Positions 12,291-64,000 of a DNA stretch of 64,000 nt are shown here, piece after piece. The DNA comes from Pseudomonas sp. PDNC002 (GTDB lineage: Bacteria; Pseudomonadota; Gammaproteobacteria; Pseudomonadales; Pseudomonadaceae), in NCBI RefSeq assembly GCF_016919445.1, contig NZ_CP070356.1:2884001-2948000 (forward strand). Direction: 5' to 3'. Numbering within the stretch: position 1 is the stretch's first letter; each line of letters starts with the position of its first letter. The notes under the pieces are model-generated. The model was given only the letters and a program-made list of their open reading frames with translations, searched no databases and was not told the origin of the DNA. The translations under genes and the position numbers were made by a program.

Positions 12291-13142
12291 GTGAGCTTGT
12301 CAGCGACCCTGCATCAACGGAACTGGATCAAGGGCCTGGGCCACATCATGGTGACTGTTGCCGTTTGCTCTCTGCTGGCGGCCTGCTCATCGACTTCTCG
12401 TGGCGGCGCCACAGTCGTCGACCGCAATGCGGCTGCGAGCAAGCCTGCAACCACCAGCGGCCAGTACGTGGTGCGTCGAGGTGACACCCTGTACTCCATC
12501 GCCTTCCGCTATGGCTGGGACTGGAAAGCCCTGGCTGCGCGCAACAACATCCCAGCGCCCTATACCATTCGCCCGGGACAATCGATCCGTTTTGACGGTG
12601 GCCCTTCCTCTGCGCCATCCGTCGCCAAAAATACAACGCCTGTCGCGCCGGTAATCGTCAACAAACCGGCTACAACTCCTGCTGCCGCCAGTAAACCGAC
12701 TACCACTTCGCCTGCACCCATCGCCCAGGCCCCCGCCAGCAGCGCAACTCCGGCTGTGTCGGGAGGTGCCGTGGGTGGGTGGATATGGCCCACCAACGGC
12801 ACCCTGATTGGGCGTTTTGCATCAAACGGCAGTTTGAATAAAGGGATTGATATAGCCGGGCAATTGGGCCAGCCTGTCCTGGCTGCGTCTAATGGCACGG
12901 TGGTGTACGCCGGTAGTGGTTTGCGGGGCTACGGCGAACTCGTGATCATTAAGCACAGCGATACCTACGTGAGCGCCTACGGTCACAACCGCAGGTTGCT
13001 GGTGCGGGAAGGGCAACAGGTCAAAGTCGGGCAGAACATTGCCGAGATGGGCTCCACAGGGACTGACCGGGTGAAGCTGCACTTCGAGATTCGCCGCCAG
13101 GGTAAACCTGTAGATCCGCTGCAATACCTGCCAAGTCGTTGA
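12291..13142 (+). CDS. nlpD: NlpD-type lipoprotein, LysM and degenerate M23 domains
   Basis: Outer-membrane lipoprotein that in enterobacteria activates the amidase AmiC at the septum. The 283-residue protein starts at a GTG preceded by aaggggga, has a signal segment and lipobox LLAAC at about residues 25-29, a LysM peptidoglycan-binding domain (YVVRRGDTLYSIA...RPGQSI, about 57-100), a long Ala/Pro/Thr-rich linker, and a C-terminal LytM/M23 domain. The zinc ligands are not conserved: the usual H-x-G-x-D is NKGID and the last H-x-H is KLH, so it should be a non-catalytic activator. The rpoS promoter normally lies within this gene. Confidence 0.93.
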   Translation: MSLSATLHQRNWIKGLGHIMVTVAVCSLLAACSSTSRGGATVVDRNAAASKPATTSGQYVVRRGDTLYSIAFRYGWDWKALAARNNIPAPYTIRPGQSIRFDGGPSSAPSVAKNTTPVAPVIVNKPATTPAAASKPTTTSPAPIAQAPASSATPAVSGGAVGGWIWPTNGTLIGRFASNGSLNKGIDIAGQLGQPVLAASNGTVVYAGSGLRGYGELVIIKHSDTYVSAYGHNRRLLVREGQQVKVGQNIAEMGSTGTDRVKLHFEIRRQGKPVDPLQYLPSR

Positions 13143-13237
13143 CGCTAGCTGTTCCCCTGCGTGGGTGAGCGGGCCTCGGTGTCCTAAGGATAAGGACGCA
13201 CCTGGGCTTGTTGTCGAACTCAGCAAGGGATAACGAC

Positions 13238-14242
13238 ATGGCACTTAAAAAAGAAGGGCCGGAGTTTGACGTCGATGATGAAGTGCTCCTTCTGGAGCCT
13301 GGCATCATCCTTGAAGAGTCGCTTGCCGAAGAGCAGGTATCACTTCGAGTCACTCCTAAAGCCACCTCTCTCTCCTCTCTCAAGCAACACAAGCATATCG
13401 ACTACAGCCGCGCGCTCGACGCGACCCAGCTGTATCTGAATGAAATCGGTTTCTCGCCGCTTCTGACTCCGGAAGAGGAAGTCCACTTTGCGCGTCTCGC
13501 GCAGAAGGGCGACCCGGCCGGGCGTCGGCGAATGATCGAAAGCAACTTGCGTCTGGTGGTGAAGATTGCGCGGCGTTACGTCAATCGCGGTCTTTCCCTG
13601 CTCGACCTGATCGAAGAGGGCAACCTCGGGCTGATCCGCGCGGTGGAGAAATTCGACCCCGAGCGTGGCTTCCGCTTCTCCACCTATGCAACCTGGTGGA
13701 TTCGTCAGACCATCGAACGGGCCATCATGAACCAGACCCGAACCATCCGTTTGCCGATCCACGTGGTGAAGGAACTCAACGTCTATCTGCGGGCGGCTCG
13801 CGAGCTGACCCACAAGCTGGACCACGAGCCTTCTCCCGAGGAAATCGCCAACCTGCTCGAGAAGCCGGTGGAAGAGGTCAAGCGCATGCTCGGTCTGAAC
13901 GAGCGGGTGACCTCCGTGGATGTCTCGCTCGGCCCGGACTCGGACAAGACCCTACTCGATACCCTGACCGATGATCGCCCCACTGATCCTTGCGAGCTGC
14001 TGCAGGATGATGATCTCAGCGAGAGCATCGACCAGTGGCTGTCGGAACTGACCGACAAGCAGCGCGAGGTGGTGATCCGCCGCTTCGGCCTGCGTGGCCA
14101 TGAAAGCAGTACCCTGGAGGAAGTTGGCCAGGAGATCGGTCTGACCCGCGAGCGGGTTCGGCAGATTCAGGTCGAAGCCCTCAAGCGCTTGCGCGAAATC
14201 CTTGAGAAGAACGGTCTTTCAAGCGACGCCCTGTTCCAATAG
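13238..14242 (+). CDS. rpoS: RNA polymerase sigma factor RpoS (sigma S)
   Basis: General stress and stationary-phase sigma factor. The 334-residue protein has region 1.2/2 ([16 protein letters not shown] from about residue 58, [17 protein letters not shown] at about 147-163), region 3 and region 4.2 with the helix-turn-helix [20 protein letters not shown] near 287-306. Start is the ATG at 13238 ([10 protein letters not shown]), preceded by caaggga; an upstream TTG at 13208 in frame has no support. It follows nlpD by 95 bases and ends at a strong hairpin terminator. Confidence 0.97.
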
Positions 14243-14263
14243 CGCCTCGGCAGGACCACAAAG

Positions 14264-14289
14264 AAGCCCGGATGATTCCGGGCTTTTTT
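14264..14289 (+). terminator. rpoS intrinsic terminator
   Basis: AAGCCCGGA and TCCGGGCTT pair in a 9-bp stem with TGAT loop followed by six T. It lies 22 bases after the rpoS stop codon. Confidence 0.9.
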
Positions 14290-14300
14290 ATTCGCCGTGC

Positions 14301-14318
14301 TGTAAGCATTCGCTTACA
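14301..14318 (+). promoter_or_regulatory. GacA box (upstream activating sequence) for rsmZ
   Basis: TGTAAGCATTCGCTTACA is an exact match to the GacA recognition pattern TGTAAG-N6-CTTACA and a perfect dyad apart from its centre. It lies about 180 bases before the inferred rsmZ start, the spacing known for GacA-controlled small RNAs in Pseudomonas. Confidence 0.92.
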
Positions 14319-14445
14319 TAAGCTGTGAGCGATAAGCTTGAAATTGGCTTGGTACAAACCTAATTCTTTGCCAAGCATTTGTTTTAAAAGGGTTTATTTT
14401 TTGTTTTTGCCTGGGGGAGTTACTGGGTGCGCGAATCTGTCCTAG

Positions 14446-14473
14446 TTGCCGCAACCGGGTAGGCGGGTAATAT
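14446..14473 (+). promoter_or_regulatory. rsmZ core promoter
   Basis: TTGCCG at 14446-14451 and TAATAT at 14468-14473 are separated by 16 bases, giving a predicted start near 14480. The GacA box lies 128 bases upstream of the -35 element, with an AT-rich stretch between. Confidence 0.65.
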
Positions 14474-14479
14474 CACTCC

Positions 14480-14597
14480 TGCGTACACGGAAAGACGCAA
14501 GCCGGTAAGGATGCCGGTCAGGACATCGCAGGATGGCGATTCATCAGGATGATGAACTAGGGAAGAAAGAGTGGGCGGGTTATCCCGCCCCTTTTTT
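14480..14597 (+). ncRNA. rsmZ: RsmZ small RNA (RsmA/CsrA decoy)
   Basis: An untranslated RNA of about 115-120 nt that sequesters the translational repressor RsmA and so links the GacS/GacA system to secondary metabolism, biofilm and virulence. The sequence shows six GGA motifs (14489, 14509, 14521, 14531, 14547, 14561), several in hairpin-loop contexts such as CATCGCAGGATGGCGAT and TCATCAGGATGATGA. It ends in a strong terminator: GGGCGGG at 14573, loop TTAT, CCCGCCC, then seven T. Position between rpoS and fdxA is the conserved rsmZ locus. The 5' end is inferred from the promoter. Confidence 0.92.
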
Positions 14598-14627
14598 TGC
14601 CCGCAGAAAAGTAGTGCTCCAGATGCA

Positions 14628-14654
14628 GAAAGGCCCGCGCGAAGCGGGCCTTTC
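14628..14654 (-). terminator. fdxA terminator
   Basis: GAAAGGCCCGC and GCGGGCCTTTC form an 11-bp stem 20 bases after the fdxA stop on the minus strand. The T run is short in both directions, so it may work for either strand. Confidence 0.65.
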
Positions 14655-14673
14655 TTGTTTGAAGCGGTGGAGA

Positions 14674-14997
14674 TCAACGCTCCAGGTACTGCATCTTGTT
14701 CGGCTTGCCGTCCCACTCTTCAGCGTCCGGCAGGGAATCCTTCTTCTCGGTGATGTTTGGCCATACATCGGCCAGATCCTTGTTCAGCTCGATGAACTCC
14801 TGCATACCATCCGGGACTTCGTCCTCGGAGAAGATCGCCTGTGCCGGGCACTCCGGTTCGCACAGGGCGCAGTCAATGCACTCATCCGGGTGGATGACCA
14901 GGAAGTTCGGGCCTTCGTAGAAGCAGTCCACCGGGCATACTTCCACGCAGTCGGTGTATTTGCACTTGATGCAGTTGTCGGTGACGACGAAGGTCAT
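14674..14997 (-). CDS. fdxA: 7Fe ferredoxin (FdxA)
   Basis: Low-potential electron carrier of 107 residues holding one [3Fe-4S] and one [4Fe-4S] cluster. Cysteines at 9, 17 and 50 and at 21, 40, 43 and 46 match the Azotobacter FdI pattern, shifted by one, with extra Cys12 and Cys25. An RBS-like ctcctc complement (gaggag) lies just before the ATG on the minus strand. The gene is convergent with rsmZ and downstream of mutS in the same orientation, 65 bases apart. Physiological partner is unknown; a reductase (fpr) is encoded elsewhere in the window. Confidence 0.95.
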
Positions 14998-15062
14998 TTC
15001 TAATTTTCTCCTCAGGCGGGCGGCTAAGCGCGCGCGATTCTAGCAGCTTGTCCTGCGATTCG

Positions 15063-57522: not shown

Positions 57523-59740
57523 TGTCCAGCCGCACAAGCTCCGCCGCCTCGTCGTGGTGGGGCTCGGCCTGATCGGCGGCTCCTTTGCCAAGGGCATCCG
57601 CGAGAAGGGGCTGTTCGAGGAAGTGGTCGGCGTCGACCGCGATCCGCAGACCCGCCGCCTGGCAGTTGAGCTGGGCGTGGTCGACCGCTGCGAGGAGAGT
57701 CTCGCCGCTGGCTGCCGCGAGGCCGACGTGATCCAACTCGCCGTGCCGATCCTGGCCATGGAGAAAGTCCTTGGCGAACTCGCCACCCTCGATATCGGCA
57801 ATGCGATTCTCACCGACGTGGGCAGCGCCAAGGGCAATGTCGTGCGCGCCGCGAAAGCCGTCTTCGGCAGCATGCCGGCGCGCTTCGTTCCCGGCCATCC
57901 CATCGCCGGCTCGGAGCAGAGCGGGGTGGAGGCGGCCAACGCGAAACTGTTCCGCCGTCATAAAGTCATCCTCACACCGCTGGATAATGCCGATGCGGAC
58001 GCGATCCAGTGCATCGAAGCGCTCTGGCGCGAGCTGGGCGCGGATGTCGAGCAGATGGACGTCGAGCACCACGACGAAGTCCTCGCCGCCACCAGCCACC
58101 TGCCGCACCTGCTGGCCTTCACGCTGGTCGACTCGCTGGCCAAACGCAGCGAAAATCTGGAAATCTTCCGTTATGCCGCTGGTGGCTTCCGCGACTTCAC
58201 GCGGATCGCCGGCAGCGACCCGGTGATGTGGCACGACATCTTCCTCGCCAACCGCGAGGCGGTGCTGCGCATCCTCGATGTATTCCGTGACGACCTCGAT
58301 GATCTGCGCGAGGCCGTCGACTATGGGGACGGGCAACAACTGATGGGCGTCTTCACCCGCGCCCGGGTTGCCCGCGAGCACTTCAGCAAAATCCTGGCCC
58401 GCCGGGCCTATGTGGACGCCATGCACAACAATGACCTGATTTTCCTGGCCCAGCCGGGTGGCCGCCTCTCCGGACGTGTTCGCGTACCGGGCGACAAGTC
58501 CATTTCCCACCGCTCGATCATGCTCGGCTCGCTGGCCGAAGGCACGACCGAGGTGCAAGGCTTCCTCGAGGGTGAAGACGCCCTCGCCACCATCCAGGCG
58601 TTCCGCGACATGGGCGTGGTCATCGAAGGCCCGCACCACGGCCGCGTGACCGTGCACGGCGTTGGCCTGCATGGCCTGAAGACGCCTCCCGGCCCGATCT
58701 ACCTGGGCAACTCCGGCACCTCCATGCGCCTGCTCAGTGGCCTGCTCGCCGCCCAGCCGTTCGACACCACCCTGACCGGTGATGCCTCGCTGTCCAAGCG
58801 CCCGATGAACCGCGTCGCCAAGCCGCTGCGCGAGATGGGCGCCGTGATCGAGACCGGTCCCGAGGGCCGTCCGCCGCTGACCATTCGTGGCGGCCAGAAG
58901 CTGACCGGCATGCACTACGACATGCCCATGGCCAGCGCCCAGGTGAAATCCTGCCTGCTGCTCGCCGGCCTCTATGCCGCTGGTGAAACCTCCACCACCG
59001 AGCCGGCTCCGACTCGCGACCACACCGAACGCATGCTGCGCGGCTTCGGCTACCCGGTCGACGTCGACGGCGCCACCGCCCGCGTCGAGTCCGGCCACAA
59101 GCTCACCGCCACCTCCATCGAAGTCCCGGCCGACATTTCCTCCGCCGCCTTCTTCCTGGTTGCCGCGAGCATCGCCGAAGGTTCCGACCTGACCCTGGAG
59201 CATGTCGGCATCAACCCGACCCGCACCGGAGTCATCGACATCCTCAAGCTGATGGGCGCCGATATCACCCTGGAAAACCAGCGTGAAGTGGGCGGCGAGC
59301 CGGTCGCGGACATCCGTGTTCGTTCGGCCCAGCTGAAAGGCATCGACATCCCCGAAGACCTGGTGCCGCTGGCCATCGATGAGTTTCCGGTGCTCTTCGT
59401 CGCTGCCGCCAACGCCGAAGGTCGCACCGTGCTGCGTGGCGCGGAAGAACTGCGGGTGAAGGAGTCCGATCGCATCCAGGTCATGGCCGACGGCCTGCTG
59501 GCGCTGGGCGTGAAGTGCGAGCCGACCCCGGACGGCATCATCATCGACGGCGGCAGCTACGGCGGCGGCGAAGTCTGGAGCCACGGCGACCACCGTATCG
59601 CCATGTCCTTCAGCGTGGCGTCCCTGCGCGCTGGCGCGCCTATCCGCATCCACGACTGCGCCAACGTCGCGACCTCCTTCCCGAACTTCCTCGGGTTGGC
59701 GTCCGGCGCGGGCATTCGCGTCGCCGAGGAGAAAAACTGA
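57515..59740 (+). CDS. tyrA-aroA: Fused cyclohexadienyl/prephenate dehydrogenase - EPSP synthase
   Basis: A 741-residue fusion typical of Pseudomonas. Residues 1-295 are TyrA: NAD motif [13 protein letters not shown] (about 13-25), [11 protein letters not shown] (about 126-136), [14 protein letters not shown] (about 184-197). Residues 305-741 are AroA (5-enolpyruvylshikimate-3-phosphate synthase): [14 protein letters not shown] (about 324-337), [11 protein letters not shown] (about 397-407), [12 protein letters not shown] LRVKESDRI near 646. The GTG start overlaps the hisC end. Residue context of the glyphosate site (GNSGTSMRL) is the ordinary sensitive class I form. Confidence 0.96.
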
Positions 59741-60429
59741 TGAACGGCGAATGGCCGGTCGTCGCCATCGACGGCCCCAGCGGCTCCGGTAAAGGCACTG
59801 TCGCCGGCTTGCTGGCCAAGCGTTTGGGCTGGAACCTGCTGGACTCGGGTGCGCTGTATCGCCTGCTGGCGTTCGCCGCCGGCAACCACGGCATCGACCT
59901 GACCAACGAGGAAGCCCTCAAGGTCCTGGCCGCGCACCTGGACGTGCAGTTCACCCACGCCAAGGGTGGGCAAGGCCAGCACATCATCCTCGAAGGCGAT
60001 GATGTCACCGATGTGATCCGCACCGAACAGGTTGGTGCCGGTGCCTCGCAAGTCGCCGCGCTACCGGCGGTGCGCGATGCGCTGCTGCAACGCCAGCGCG
60101 CATTCCTCGAAGCGCCTGGCCTGGTGGCCGACGGTCGCGACATGGGCACCGTGGTCTTTCCCAGCGCACCGCTGAAAATCTTCCTTACCGCCTCCGCCGA
60201 AGAGCGCGCCCGTCGCCGTTACCTGCAGTTGAAAGGCAAAGGTATCGACAGCGACCAGGCCCAGTTGGCCGAGGAGATTCGCACCCGCGACGAGCGTGAC
60301 AGCCAGCGTGCGGTAGCGCCGTTGAAGCCGGCAAATGGTGCGATCGTGCTGGACTCCACCAGCATGTCGATCGACGAGGTGCTGGAGGTAATCCACACGG
60401 AAGTCGTGCGCCTGGGCTTCACCGACTGA
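59740..60429 (+). CDS. cmk: Cytidylate kinase
   Basis: Phosphorylates CMP and dCMP to the diphosphates. At 229 residues the P-loop [15 protein letters not shown] is at residues 11-25, YRLLAF near 38, [13 protein letters not shown] near 125-137 and [19 protein letters not shown] near 142-160. Its ATG overlaps the tyrA-aroA stop (TGATG), so it is the final gene of the serC operon. In P. aeruginosa rpsA follows directly; here 3 kb of polysaccharide genes intervene. Confidence 0.96.
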
Positions 60430-60603
60430 TCGCCCTTCACCGGGCGGTTCGCTGAATCGCGGATCGCTCGGCGGAGCACTCGGAAATTGCTTTCCGAGGA
60501 TGCGGAAGCATCCTGCATTCATCCCTCCCGCTCACGAGCACCATACCCGTCCTAGTATTTCTGGCAGCCCTTAGATTGGCCGCCTAGTTCGGTCGGGGGT
60601 TGC
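60430..60603. other. Intergenic region after cmk
   Basis: 174 bases with two small hairpins (CGGAAA...TTTCCG at about 60480 and GATGC...GCATC at about 60498) but no clear T run. No JUMPstart element and no good promoter for the downstream polysaccharide genes was found. Confidence 0.4.
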
Positions 60604-61413
60604 TTGCTAACACGTTTCCTTCCTACCTGGCTCGATGCATTCCGCGATCGGTCCGGTCTGATCCTTTCGCTGGCGCGTCGCGACGTCGCCTCCCGCTACC
60701 ATGGCACCTTGCTTGGCAGCGTATGGGTGTTCCTCGCCCCCCTCCTGATGCTGCTGGTCTATACCTTCGTCTTCGGTCACATCCTCAAGGCCCGCTGGGG
60801 TGGTGATCAGAGCACCACCGCATTTGCCCTCACGCTGTTCTCCGGGCTCCTGCTCAACAGTCTCCTCGCCGACTGCCTGGGGCGAGCCTCCGGCGTCGTT
60901 CACCAGCACAGCAACTATGTGAAGAAGCTGGTCTTTCCGCTGGAAACGCTGCCTCTCTCGGTCGTTCTCGCCGCGCTGACCAATACCGTGGTGGGGTACC
61001 TGATACTGCTGCTGGCAATGTTCCTGTTGGGGCCGGCGCCGGGTTGGAATGCCCTCCTGTTGCCGCTGGCACTTTTGCCTTTCCTCATCTGCGTGGTTGG
61101 CCTGGCGTGTGGCGTCGCCGCCCTGGGGGCTTACTTCCGTGACGTCGGCCAGATCGTGCAATTTCTGCTGGTCCTGCTGCTGTTCCTCAGTCCGGTGCTG
61201 TATCCACTGACTTCCCTGCCTCCCGAGGCACGCGATTTTCTGCTGCTGAATCCGCTGACGATTCCGGTGGAAACGGTGCGAAGCGTCCTGTTCGGATCGC
61301 CGCTTCCTCCGGAATCGCAGATCTGGTCCTACACCCTCATTTCGGCGTTGATCGCCCTGCTCGGCGTGTCCCTCTTCCTGCGCGTCAAGAGTGGATTCGC
61401 GGATGTCCTTTGA
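60604..61413 (+). CDS. wzm: ABC-2 polysaccharide exporter permease (Wzm-like), without its ATPase
   Basis: A 269-residue inner-membrane permease with about six helices and an ABC-2 fold, of the type that exports O-antigen or teichoic-like polymers on a lipid carrier. Typical features: LILSLARRDVASRYHGTLLGSVW (about 19-41), FSGLLLNSLLADC (about 81), PLTSLPPEARDFLLLNPLT near 202-220. TTG start at 60604 follows ggggg. Wzm normally needs Wzt, an ABC ATPase usually encoded next to it; none follows here, so the exporter is either orphaned or completed elsewhere. Stop overlaps the next remnant by 11 bases. Confidence 0.85.
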   Translation: MLTRFLPTWLDAFRDRSGLILSLARRDVASRYHGTLLGSVWVFLAPLLMLLVYTFVFGHILKARWGGDQSTTAFALTLFSGLLLNSLLADCLGRASGVVHQHSNYVKKLVFPLETLPLSVVLAALTNTVVGYLILLLAMFLLGPAPGWNALLLPLALLPFLICVVGLACGVAALGAYFRDVGQIVQFLLVLLLFLSPVLYPLTSLPPEARDFLLLNPLTIPVETVRSVLFGSPLPPESQIWSYTLISALIALLGVSLFLRVKSGFADVL

Positions 61414-61567
61414 GACGCAGACGGCACCGTCCGACCTTCTCGGTCAGCGGCTGATTGCCAAGGAACTCGCCAGCGCCCAGGAGATCGCACGTGCCATCGA
61501 TTTGCAGGTGCGTATCGGCGGACGCCTGGGGGCGATCCTCATGCGCTCCGGTGTCATTTCCGAGACT
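61403..61567 (+). pseudogene. Truncated GspE-N/MshEN-like N-terminal domain
   Basis: From an ATG that overlaps the wzm stop, about 54 residues match the start of a MshEN/GspE-N-type domain (DLLGQRLIAKELASAQEIARA, RIGGRLGAILMRSGVISE). In many Pseudomonas polysaccharide loci this domain heads a larger glycosyltransferase. After GVISE at about 61564 similarity ends and the frame runs into unrelated sequence (stop 61639). This is the left side of an apparent deletion junction. Confidence 0.65.
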
Positions 61568-61574
61568 AAGCGCC

Positions 61575-61916
61575 CCCAAAGTTCGGGAGCGAATGGGCGC
61601 AAATGCCAGGAAGCGTATTTTATCTTCCTTCAACTCTAGTCAATTCCGTCGTCGACTAGATGTGTTGCTGGAAGTGGCGTTGAAAGATTCAAATGCTACG
61701 CCCCCTGCCCCTTCGGTGGGGACGCGGTTTTTTGCTATTTCAAGACTCCATGGCCAGTGGGGGTATGCTAGAGCTCGTCGTAAGATGGAGCATACGCGAT
61801 TGGGAAGGATGCTATTGGCGGCAAGCATGCCGCAGAATTTATTGAAGGCTTTATTTGTCGCTTGGGCATTTGGCAAGGCTCTGTTAGGGACAAGACTTTT
61901 TCAAGCAGGGGACTGA
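61575..61916 (+). pseudogene. C-terminal remnant of a glycosyltransferase
   Basis: In a different frame from the preceding fragment, KVRERMGANARKRILSSFNS and the following QFRRRLDVLLEVALK look like the end of a GT4-type glycosyltransferase; another 75 residues, basic and hydrophobic in places, follow before the TGA at 61914. No start codon in a plausible position belongs to it. Base composition becomes AT-richer from about 61600. It represents the right side of a deletion that removed most of one or several genes. Confidence 0.65.
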
Positions 61917-61918
61917 AA

Positions 61919-63199
61919 GTGAGCAGGATCCTAGTTGTGCTCGGTATGCACAGGTCTGGCTCTAGTCTGCTAGCGGCTGCGATGGAGTCGCTTGGTGTGG
62001 AGTTTGGTGATCAACTAATTAAGCCGCGCGTGGATAATCCCAAAGGGTTTTGGGAGGATCAGGATGTTATAAATATCAATGATGCTTTGTATAACGTGTT
62101 GGGCGGATTTTCATCAAGTCTCGGCTTCGATGAGCGGGAGCTCGTGCTTGCACCACAGTATGGTGAGATTGAGGCTCAAATAGTAGAGCTAATATCTTGT
62201 CGTTTGCGATCTCATCCCGTTTATGGTGTCAAGGATCCTCGTATGGCGCGACTCATGGCAGTATGGGGTCCGCTTCTGGAGAGCGCCGCTGATCACGTTA
62301 GCTATCTTGTACCTCTGCGGAATCCATTGAGTGTTGCAGCCTCTTTGAATGCTAGGGATGGCTTTTCCATGCGCAAGGGGATGCTTCTCTGGTATGAGCA
62401 TATGTATCGGGCTTTATCGTATGCCAAGGATCGAGAAGTTGTCGTTGTAGACTATGATGTGTTTCTCGATGATCCGGCGGCGGTACTATCAAGGGTTGCG
62501 GAAAAAATTCATCTGACCTTTGACGTTGATAGGATAGATAGTTTCGTTGAACGCGTTTTTGATAGAGAGTTACGACATAGCTCCTTTGATTCGAACGATC
62601 TGCGTGCTCATCCAGACTCATTCCCAGCACTTTGTCGCCTTTATGATGTTTTGTGCGATATCTCGAATGACAGCTGCCAATCCGACAAGAAGTTTCAGCT
62701 GAAGCTCGCCCAAGTCGAAGAGGATTACCGTTCGCTCTGGACATTGCTGCGTCATTGCGGAGAGCAGGACGTTAACCTTTGGCGGTCGTGGCAGGAACGA
62801 TGCTCCGAGCGCGAGCGGTGGGACGAGAGAGAGCGAGAACTGTCCAGTTGGACCGGTCAGCTGGAGTCGCAAGTCAATTCACTCACAGCAGACTTGGGAC
62901 GCTTAGAGGGAGATAGGTTGCTGCTGCTTACGAGCTGGCTCCTTGACTGTAGGCAGTTTTCACTTGCGAAGGCCGAGCTAGAGGCGTTAGTGGAAGGTCG
63001 TGGCTTGGAATTGGCGGCCGCGCAATTCGAGGCTGACCGGCTTGCGCATGAGCTTTTTGTGAAAGCGGCGGAAGTCGATAACCTTTGTCGTGTGAATGAG
63101 GCAATGCTTTCCAGCCGGTCGTGGCGCCTTACGGCTCCACTGCGCAAGCTTCGAGCTGTGTTGATGGCGGCCATTGACCAGAAAGGGCATCGTTGCTAA
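61919..63199 (+). CDS. Sulfotransferase-like protein with coiled-coil C-terminus
   Basis: A 426-residue protein. The first 250 residues are sulfotransferase-like: 5'-phosphosulfate loop VLGMHRSGSSLLAAAMESLG (about 7-26), VKDPRMARL (about 103) and the 3'-phosphate motif LVPLRNPLSVAASLNARDGF (about 123-142). Residues about 270-400 form a charged coiled coil (SERERWDERERELSSW), ending with SRSWRLTAPLRKLR (about 398-411), a motif often seen at the edge of Pseudomonas surface-glycan glycosyltransferases. GTG 61919 with gggga upstream is 3 bases after the previous stop. AT-rich codon use sets it apart from neighbours. PAPS-dependent sulfation of a surface glycan is inferred. Confidence 0.75.
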   Translation: MSRILVVLGMHRSGSSLLAAAMESLGVEFGDQLIKPRVDNPKGFWEDQDVININDALYNVLGGFSSSLGFDERELVLAPQYGEIEAQIVELISCRLRSHPVYGVKDPRMARLMAVWGPLLESAADHVSYLVPLRNPLSVAASLNARDGFSMRKGMLLWYEHMYRALSYAKDREVVVVDYDVFLDDPAAVLSRVAEKIHLTFDVDRIDSFVERVFDRELRHSSFDSNDLRAHPDSFPALCRLYDVLCDISNDSCQSDKKFQLKLAQVEEDYRSLWTLLRHCGEQDVNLWRSWQERCSERERWDERERELSSWTGQLESQVNSLTADLGRLEGDRLLLLTSWLLDCRQFSLAKAELEALVEGRGLELAAAQFEADRLAHELFVKAAEVDNLCRVNEAMLSSRSWRLTAPLRKLRAVLMAAIDQKGHRC

Positions 63200-63406
63200 C
63201 ATTCCAGACCTTATATCGGGACCGTTTCGCCCCTCCGGAGCGAATCGATTCCCCTAAAATCTGAATGTGGAGTGCCCGTTTCGGCGGGTGCAACAGGGGG
63301 CCGGCGGGATACCAGTCTTGATCCTGCTGGCTTCTTTTTCATCACTTGACCGTGTTCGCTGGTGACGCGGAATCGGGCTTACAAGCCTTTGACTACAGGT
63401 ATAGAC
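63200..63406. promoter_or_regulatory. rpsA upstream/leader region
   Basis: 207 bases between the sulfotransferase gene and rpsA. Composition returns to the host pattern around 63290. A TTGACC hexamer near 63347 may be a -35 element, and GGCTTACAAGCC at 63376-63387 a small hairpin before the rpsA ribosome binding site. The region resembles the leader that in relatives follows cmk directly. Confidence 0.45.
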
Positions 63407-64000
63407 ATGAGCGAAAGCTTCGCAGAACTCTTTGAAGAAAGTCTGAAATCCCTCGACATGCAGCCGGGTGCAATCATCACCGGCATCGTGGTTGACATCG
63501 ATGGTGACTGGGTCACCGTCCATGCTGGCCTCAAGTCCGAGGGCGTCATCCCGGTCGAGCAGTTCTACAACGAACAGGGCGAGCTGACCATCAATGTGGG
63601 TGACGAAGTCCACGTTGCGCTGGACGCGGTAGAAGACGGCTTCGGTGAAACCAAGCTGTCCCGCGAAAAAGCCAAGCGTGCCGAGAGCTGGATTGTTCTG
63701 GAAGCTGCTTTCTCTGCCGACGAAGTGGTCAAAGGCGTCATCAACGGCAAGGTCAAGGGTGGTTTCACCGTCGACGTCAACGGCATCCGCGCGTTCCTGC
63801 CGGGTTCGCTGGTCGACGTACGTCCGGTTCGCGACACTACTCATCTGGAAGGCAAAGAGCTCGAGTTCAAGGTCATCAAGCTGGACCAGAAGCGCAACAA
63901 CGTTGTCGTTTCCCGCCGCAGCGTGCTGGAAGCCGAGAACAGCGCCGAGCGCGAAGCTCTGCTGGAATCCCTGCAGGAAGGTCAGCAAGTCAAAGGTATC
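63407..64000 (+). CDS. rpsA: 30S ribosomal protein S1, N-terminal part (3' end outside window)
   Basis: Largest ribosomal protein, which binds mRNA leaders and delivers them to the 30S subunit. The frame opens at ATG 63407 ([21 protein letters not shown]) and is still open at the window end after 198 codons; the family is about 560 residues. Two S1 OB-fold domains are seen: about residues 21-88 ([21 protein letters not shown]) and 105-170 ([19 protein letters not shown]). It should belong with cmk, but is displaced from it by the polysaccharide genes. Confidence 0.97.

Follow-up and report, generated by a model that had tools for sequence, protein, structure and literature searches.

Genes between cmk and rpsA

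The genome of Pseudomonas sp. PDNC002 (G000 in the comparisons below) is a single 6.39-Mb contig, 100% complete. We analyzed its bases 2,884,001-2,948,000, a stretch of 64,000 nucleotides hereafter referred to as the window, and concentrated on the interval between cmk and rpsA, where an earlier note made from the sequence had proposed the remnant of a surface-polysaccharide locus. Open reading frames (ORFs), tblastn searches, Pfam scans and a promoter scan revealed the following features (window coordinates).

59740..60429, plus strand: cmk (cytidylate kinase), left flank; ORF and tblastn across 25 genomes
60604..61413, plus strand: wzm, ABC-2 glycan export permease, 269 amino acids, intact; Pfam ABC2_membrane, E 8.9e-25
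61403..61567, plus strand: gspE stump, N-terminus of a type II secretion system (T2SS) ATPase; tblastn with GspE of five relatives
61568..61589, no strand: deletion junction, lying after the last position with GspE homology and before the first with GT4 homology
61590..61916, plus strand: C-terminal stump of the penultimate cluster gene, a GT4 glycosyltransferase, counterpart of G024_21; tblastn
61919..63199, plus strand: sulfotransferase-like gene, last of the cluster, 426 amino acids; tblastn and Pfam
63174..63202, plus strand: predicted sigma-70-like rpsA promoter, TTGACC-17-TAACAT, extending over the 3' end of the cluster's last gene; promoter scan
63407..64000, plus strand: rpsA (ribosomal protein S1), right flank, running off the window; ORF and tblastn

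The end of cmk at 60429, the start of rpsA at 63407, the number of genes and the shift in composition described earlier were all borne out. The GC content is near normal in wzm (0.612) and in the gspE stump (0.624), window bases 1-60429 having 0.646, and drops to 0.502 in the GT4 stump and 0.515 in the sulfotransferase-like gene. The AT-rich part of the interval is about 61590-63199.

An intact cluster at the same site in relatives

The surroundings of cmk and rpsA were examined in the 24 other members of a set of 25 genus genomes, one genome per species, the interval being taken as the distance between the tblastn ends of the two genes. It measured 145-420 bp in 14 of the 24 genomes, 1.46-1.65 kb with other genes in three (G008, G016 and G023) and 23.3-27.4 kb in six, namely G001 (P. 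citronellolis), G003 (P. delhiensis), G004 (P. jinjuensis), G014 (P. schmalbachii), G022 and G024. One more carrier, G015, has the cluster split into two parts, one with cmk and wzm through gspM, the other with the ORF before gspD through rpsA, which lie on opposite strands about 2 Mb apart. The four-gene arrangement of the window was found in none of the 24. The break in G015, between gspM and the ORF before gspD, resembles the outcome of an inversion. Judged by eye, an aromatic aminotransferase-like gene and a gene for a PhhR-like regulator come after the wzm half; the same two genes also follow the cluster of G088.

Gene order is the same in all six whole clusters and in the halves of G015: wzm, gspE, gspF, pseudopilin genes, gspK, gspL, gspM, an ORF of about 159 amino acids and gspD, followed by genes for a secreted-looking protein, an epimerase (in G001, G003, G004 and G014 only), a GT4 enzyme, Wzt and a glycosyltransferase/sulfotransferase. 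At the 3' end come one or two small GT2 genes, a GT4, a GT2, a second GT4 (in G004, G014 and G024 only) and a sulfotransferase gene, and then rpsA. Cluster ORFs were called by a longest-ORF rule, which at times picked the antisense frame; the order was re-read by tblastn, and pseudopilins were located by motif. Four frames with the prepilin motif GFTLLE lie between gspF and gspK in each of the four clusters inspected. Longest-ORF sizes are 396-399 amino acids for GspF, 196-207 for GspM and 785-830 for GspD.

Domains were assigned on G024 proteins, except that the G022 copy of the secreted protein and the G004 epimerase were used. Pfam scans of G024 returned T2SSE (E 1e-133), T2SSF (2e-49), Secretin (7e-45), Wzt_C (1.5e-13), Sulfotransfer_3 (3e-12 and 7e-7) and several GT2/GT4 families. 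Wzm, Wzt with its C-terminal carbohydrate-binding domain and glycosyltransferases are thus present in G024, and tblastn found the same genes in the other carriers; no Wzx or Wzy family was detected among the 19 cluster proteins scanned. The N-terminus of G024 GspE (locus L045, 3532-5256) contains an MshE-related domain that binds cyclic di-GMP (c-di-GMP), scoring 53.7 bits against an NCBIfam cut-off of 38. The T2SS part from gspE to gspD occupies about 10.4 kb in G022 and G024, or 40-45% of the cluster, and is followed by the conserved secreted-looking protein, so the earlier description of the locus as concerned with polysaccharide only had to be given up.

The window interval as a deletion scar

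The window wzm, listed with TTG as its putative start codon, is 60-71% identical to the first cluster gene of six relatives. Its stop codon is overlapped by the start of the gspE stump, which showed 60-78% identity to the GspE of five relatives (E 1e-12 to 2e-16), the homology reaching residue ~60 and ~55 N-terminal residues being retained. The stump covers most of the stretch occupied by the MshE-type domain in GspE of G024, the one GspE that was scanned. Of the two glycan-enzyme stumps recognized in the earlier note, this first one was rejected as a glycan enzyme on the strength of the GspE matches. The second stood: tblastn aligned 61590-61913 with residues 488-582 of the G024 protein (34% identity over 95 amino acids, E 2e-11) and, at 28-29% identity, with the G004 and G014 proteins (E 4e-5 and 2e-4), ~100 C-terminal residues of the glycosyltransferase being matched and ~108 retained. 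The sulfotransferase-like gene is full-length and has no internal stop, with a GTG start inferred from the alignment. With the gene that ends the cluster in four relatives it shares 41-47% identity (best E 3e-129), and it matches Pfam Sulfotransfer_3 with E 1.1e-5 and 26.2 bits, just below the cut-off of 27. The tail of its product resembles a coiled coil by eye.

GspE homology stops at 61564 or 61567 and GT4 homology starts at 61590 or 61593. Because these two ends nearly adjoin, one junction explains the interval. Compared with G024, whose penultimate gene is the same one, ~22.4 kb is absent: the loss extends from GspE residue ~60 to residue ~488 of the penultimate glycosyltransferase and leaves the first and last genes of the cluster in place. 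Since relatives have these two genes at either end of the whole cluster, the scar is not a chance juxtaposition. Only wzm and the start of gspE remain of the wzm-T2SS part, and wzt is not present at the window locus. The G000 genome gave no match to the secreted protein, and its secretin matches, two good and one weak, all lie away from this locus. We conclude that the interval is almost certainly a relic produced by deletion of this cluster. The proposal of a surface-polysaccharide export locus cut by an internal deletion is thereby upheld, the whole locus being found at the same place in relatives.

Between G000 and G022, changes in wzm at the three codon positions amounted to 0.24, 0.15 and 0.53, compared with 0.27, 0.14 and 0.48 for the intact pair G022/G015. 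Because both wzm and the sulfotransferase gene are free of stops and keep a third-position bias like that of intact pairs, the loss of the cluster was probably recent, though it is not dated by these values. Since the wzt, the T2SS genes and the secreted protein of the locus are gone, the remaining wzm and sulfotransferase gene are very probably idle and heading for loss.

History of the site

A flank tree with 25 rows was compared with trees of nine cluster genes; all are small and unrooted. In the flank tree carriers fall into three separate groups. The first consists of G004 and G014. The second includes carriers G001 and G003 together with G002, G005 and G011, which are empty at the site. 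The third is a poorly resolved group of 16 rows that contains G022, G024, G015 and the scar of G000, as well as three mid-sized intervals and nine empty ones. The nine cluster gene trees gave nearly the same unrooted grouping. The main departure is G014, which in cluster trees is placed nearer the G022 group, or between the groups, and not with G004; the tree of the last sulfotransferase gene is weakly resolved. The G000 wzm groups with those of G022, G015 and G024, members of its own 16-row flank group. Because the gene trees largely follow the flanks, the locus is probably old and repeatedly lost and not freshly docked. The simplest reading of the trees would be an old cluster at this site with several losses and some exchange; relatives may also have gained it by transfer among themselves.

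The 1.5-kb intervals of G008, G016 and G023 were considered as further relics and rejected, as they hold other genes and gave no blastp match to cluster proteins. By eye, G023 carries a BRO-like small protein there, and the intervals of G008 and G016 each carry, on the minus strand, a secreted protein with an immunoglobulin-like look.

Similarity to known surface-layer loci

The cluster was compared with known systems, as described in the parts of the cited reports that were available. In Aeromonas salmonicida A450, the region between wzm and wzt holds the T2SS genes and vapA, and in-frame deletion of vapA abolishes the A-layer protein with O-antigen kept (PMC4483657). In A. hydrophila AH-1 (O11), the block comprises spsE (551 amino acids), F (399), G, H, I, J, K, L, M (198), orf2 (166), D (743) and VapA (469), with a truncated wzm before it and a complete wzm after it (PMC4413209). 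The Pseudomonas cluster likewise has E, F, pseudopilins, K, L, M, the ORF, D and a secreted protein between wzm and wzt, with O-polysaccharide genes coming after, as in the Aeromonas A-layer locus (wbsalmo). Because of this match in gene order, we read the Pseudomonas cluster as being of the surface-layer (S-layer) type. The two differ in several respects. The Pseudomonas site is cmk-rpsA and not oprM/UDP-ep; a GT4 gene, joined by the epimerase gene in four carriers, separates the secreted protein from wzt; sulfotransferases are present and no rhamnose genes were seen in the cluster; and the copy in the window is deleted. The secreted protein has 602-608 amino acids compared with 469 in AH-1 VapA, and the two are likened by gene order, not sequence.

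Other S-layer proteins are encoded next to gsp genes. The NpdA protein of Delftia and Paracidovorax has a gsp cluster upstream of its gene, and Pseudomonas mendocina and 'species' appear in the available part of the npdA survey, but the carrier species named here do not (PMC10765051). NpdA resembles the Pseudomonas protein in its Sec-type signal, lack of a conserved domain, upstream gsp genes and scattered occurrence over Beta- and Gammaproteobacteria. It differs in that mature NpdA is about 52 kDa and that no wzm/wzt arrangement is described in that part of the report, the comparison being one of context and rough size. The gene for Slr4 (PF19526), the S-layer protein of Pseudoalteromonas tunicata, also adjoins gsp genes (PMC7821379), and Slr4 is a beta-rich secreted protein, as the Pseudomonas protein appears to be; Slr4 homologues, however, are reported only from marine metagenomes. 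In Azotobacter vinelandii, T2SS genes and a putative S-layer gene are reported to share one cluster with glycosyltransferases (PMC4465626).

The secreted-looking protein follows gspD directly in all seven carriers and has a signal-peptide-like N-terminus by eye. In six relatives it is 73-84% identical to the G022 copy, compared with 72-80% for GspE and 73-82% for GspF. Other cluster proteins mostly show 44-71% identity to G022, with only the glycosyltransferases of G015 reaching 74-84%; the secreted protein is thus, with GspE and GspF, the best conserved product of the cluster. Its C-terminal ~130 residues form a conserved predicted beta-sandwich resembling, through weak structure matches, the fold of Anabaena sensory rhodopsin transducer (ASRT). 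The ASRT/ASRAH superfamily of eight-stranded beta-sandwich proteins, which includes TM1070, is predicted to bind sugars (PMC2739507, part of text). This likeness is one of predicted fold alone, neither sequence nor Foldseek E-values being significant. A search of PDB chains by sequence with the alignment of this domain gave one match, a beta-galactosidase (E 0.043). Foldseek and VIA-align searches with the full 608-residue model returned nothing reliable, and solved S-layer structures were not among the matches listed for either the full model or the C-terminal domain, an absence that excludes nothing.

The search for homologues of the protein covered 398 Pseudomonadaceae genomes, 390 from the order and 369 from the class, each sample being part of a larger set. 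Five matches came from outside the genus, of which G607, G690 and G711 were examined and the weak G435 and G665 left out; a further search gave four, with G944 and G1050 examined and G800 and G954 left out. The distant homologues in G944 (L106, 29-3250) and G1050 (L104) are neighbouring pairs. The G944 pair has a secretin-like gene at a distance of about 11 kb, and no T2SS gene match was found in the 36 kb examined in G1050. A plasmid-borne copy was rejected, as none of 72,556 plasmid records matched.

Taken together, we estimate a probability of roughly 0.8 that a single internal deletion in a long-resident S-layer-type cluster of this Pseudomonas group left the window interval as its scar. 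By analogy with the systems above, the intact cluster is likely to make an S-layer secreted by its T2SS. Several observations weigh against this interpretation. The S-layer of the Pseudomonas carriers is a prediction from gene content, and the deletion was seen in one assembly only. In G024, GspE and GspD fall below the NCBIfam equivalog cut-offs (571.7 of 630 and 259.1 of 351 bits) and GspM falls far below (28.1 of 60). GspK and GspL had no family match in the G024 scans and are named by position and size only, and neither GspC nor a prepilin peptidase was identified in the cluster. Neither Pfam nor NCBIfam has a family that the secreted protein matches above cut-off, and PDB sequences gave no match; the full-length model of the protein is poor (predicted local distance difference test score, pLDDT, 56.9), and the best Foldseek hit of the ASRT-like domain is not significant (E 0.059). 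No PF19526 match was obtained with the 11 alignment members or in any of 15 genomes at E 1. The sole link to Slr4 comes from one of 14 C-terminal fragments searched, that of the distant homologue in G944, which aligns to the end of the Slr4 profile with 19.6 bits, below the threshold of 25.

Alternative explanations

O-polysaccharide loci typically contain Wzm/Wzt, glycosyltransferases and sulfotransferases, and the cluster could be an O-antigen locus of the ABC type that also has an ordinary T2SS, which would secrete an exoenzyme or adhesin; the 608-residue protein would then be cargo that forms no lattice. The missing family match and a lattice that is so far only predicted agree with this. 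We nevertheless consider it unlikely: no enzymatic domain was found in the protein, its high conservation is as expected for a structural subunit, and the gene order is that of the Aeromonas S-layer locus. The alternative raised by the earlier note, a polysaccharide locus that docked in this lineage and was then trimmed, appears quite improbable. It gains from the AT-rich second half of the interval, from the different placing of G014 in trees that are small and unrooted, and from the unrelated genes in G008, G016 and G023, which indicate that the interval takes up DNA; this part of the idea can be kept. An insertion special to the lineage probably did not occur, however, since carriers with the same gene order are spread over three flank-tree groups and the cluster trees, including that of the G000 wzm, mostly follow the flanks.

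Two further possibilities concern the scar itself. The four genes might be a functional minimal locus in which the permease and the sulfotransferase act on another glycan. Both genes are open with a third-position bias, and the genome has Wzt_C proteins encoded at two other loci, but each of those wzt genes has a wzm of its own, two truncated genes stand in between here and the locus lacks wzt, which makes this very unlikely. It is scarcely credible that the missing 22 kb exists in the organism and was collapsed in assembly. The species was represented by a single assembly, but that assembly is one complete contig, in which neither a copy of the secreted protein nor, at the locus, a secretin match was found. 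The preferred reading therefore remains a deleted S-layer-type cluster.

Proposed function of the intact cluster

In the mechanism that we propose, Sec would take the 608-residue protein across the inner membrane, the dedicated T2SS would take it across the outer one, and Wzm/Wzt would export an O-polysaccharide, probably sulfated. The C-terminal beta-sandwich, similar to the ASRT fold with its predicted sugar binding, would hold the lattice to this O-polysaccharide; judged from the structural model, such a role as polysaccharide anchor is possible but rather doubtful. The MshE-type domain of the T2SS ATPase could tie secretion of the coat to the biofilm signal c-di-GMP. Put at its fullest, P. 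citronellolis, P. delhiensis, P. jinjuensis, P. schmalbachii and three further species would have an undescribed S-layer specified by one locus, comprising a c-di-GMP-linked T2SS, a 608-residue lattice protein and a sulfated, ABC-exported polysaccharide gripped by an ASRT-like lectin domain; the coat would have been shed several times, the window capturing one loss before the ends decayed. We offer this fuller picture tentatively, at somewhat less than even odds.

This kind of locus is already known, and the window itself is a case of ordinary decay; what makes it of interest is the intact locus to which it points. In the literature searched, mostly non-subscription journals, we found no description of a copy in this Pseudomonas group, of the cmk-rpsA site or of repeated loss, nor of an S-layer in the named carrier species. 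If the interpretation is true, the S-layer is an old feature of a Pseudomonas group, and its gain or loss could alter phage entry, predation and biofilm behaviour. With the whole pathway in one cluster of cultured bacteria, Gram-negative S-layer secretion and tethering to lipopolysaccharide would be testable by single-gene deletions.

Surroundings of rpsA and other glycan loci

In P. aeruginosa, surface polysaccharide genes lie in the wider neighbourhood of rpsA. The O-specific antigen locus there (ihfB-wzz...wbpM, Wzx/Wzy) differs from the Pseudomonas cluster, which uses ABC (Wzm/Wzt) export, has a T2SS and lies on the other side of rpsA, between cmk and rpsA; the cluster thus does not belong to the Wzx/Wzy type. 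Genes downstream of rpsA were read in six genomes. An EamA-type transporter gene and a RarD-like gene follow it in G000, G017, G022 and G024, and ihfB follows in G002 and G012. Judged by gene order, the rpsA-ihfB linkage is broken by a rearrangement in one subgroup. The suggested connection with the P. aeruginosa O-antigen locus through this linkage fails in G000, where ihfB lies about 2.5 Mb from rpsA.

Beside ihfB of G000 (G000:C1, ~5.458-5.464 Mb), LapB-like, epimerase-like, WecA/WbpL-like and WbpM-like genes were recognized by eye. There was no obvious wzx or wzy between those genes, and the classical O-antigen site looks reduced too. The two other Wzt_C genes of G000, each with its own adjoining wzm, are located at 3.73-3.75 and 0.67-0.69 Mb of G000:C1. 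By eye, one of these loci resembles the common (A-band) antigen locus and the second has a polysaccharide-pyruvyl-transferase-like gene and glycosyltransferases.

The promoter scan of 60300-63500 gave two sites, compared with 1.4 expected, one being the site at 63174-63202 ahead of rpsA. A similar TTGACG...TTGCTA(A/C) stretch precedes rpsA in 13 of the 14 empty-site genomes, the exception being G018. The window illustrates how such a locus disappears, one deletion taking about 22 kb and sparing the rpsA promoter that overlaps the last gene. A second AT-richer dip, at window positions 12291-15000 (GC about 0.55-0.59), corresponds by eye to an ordinary nlpD-rpoS region followed by mutS.

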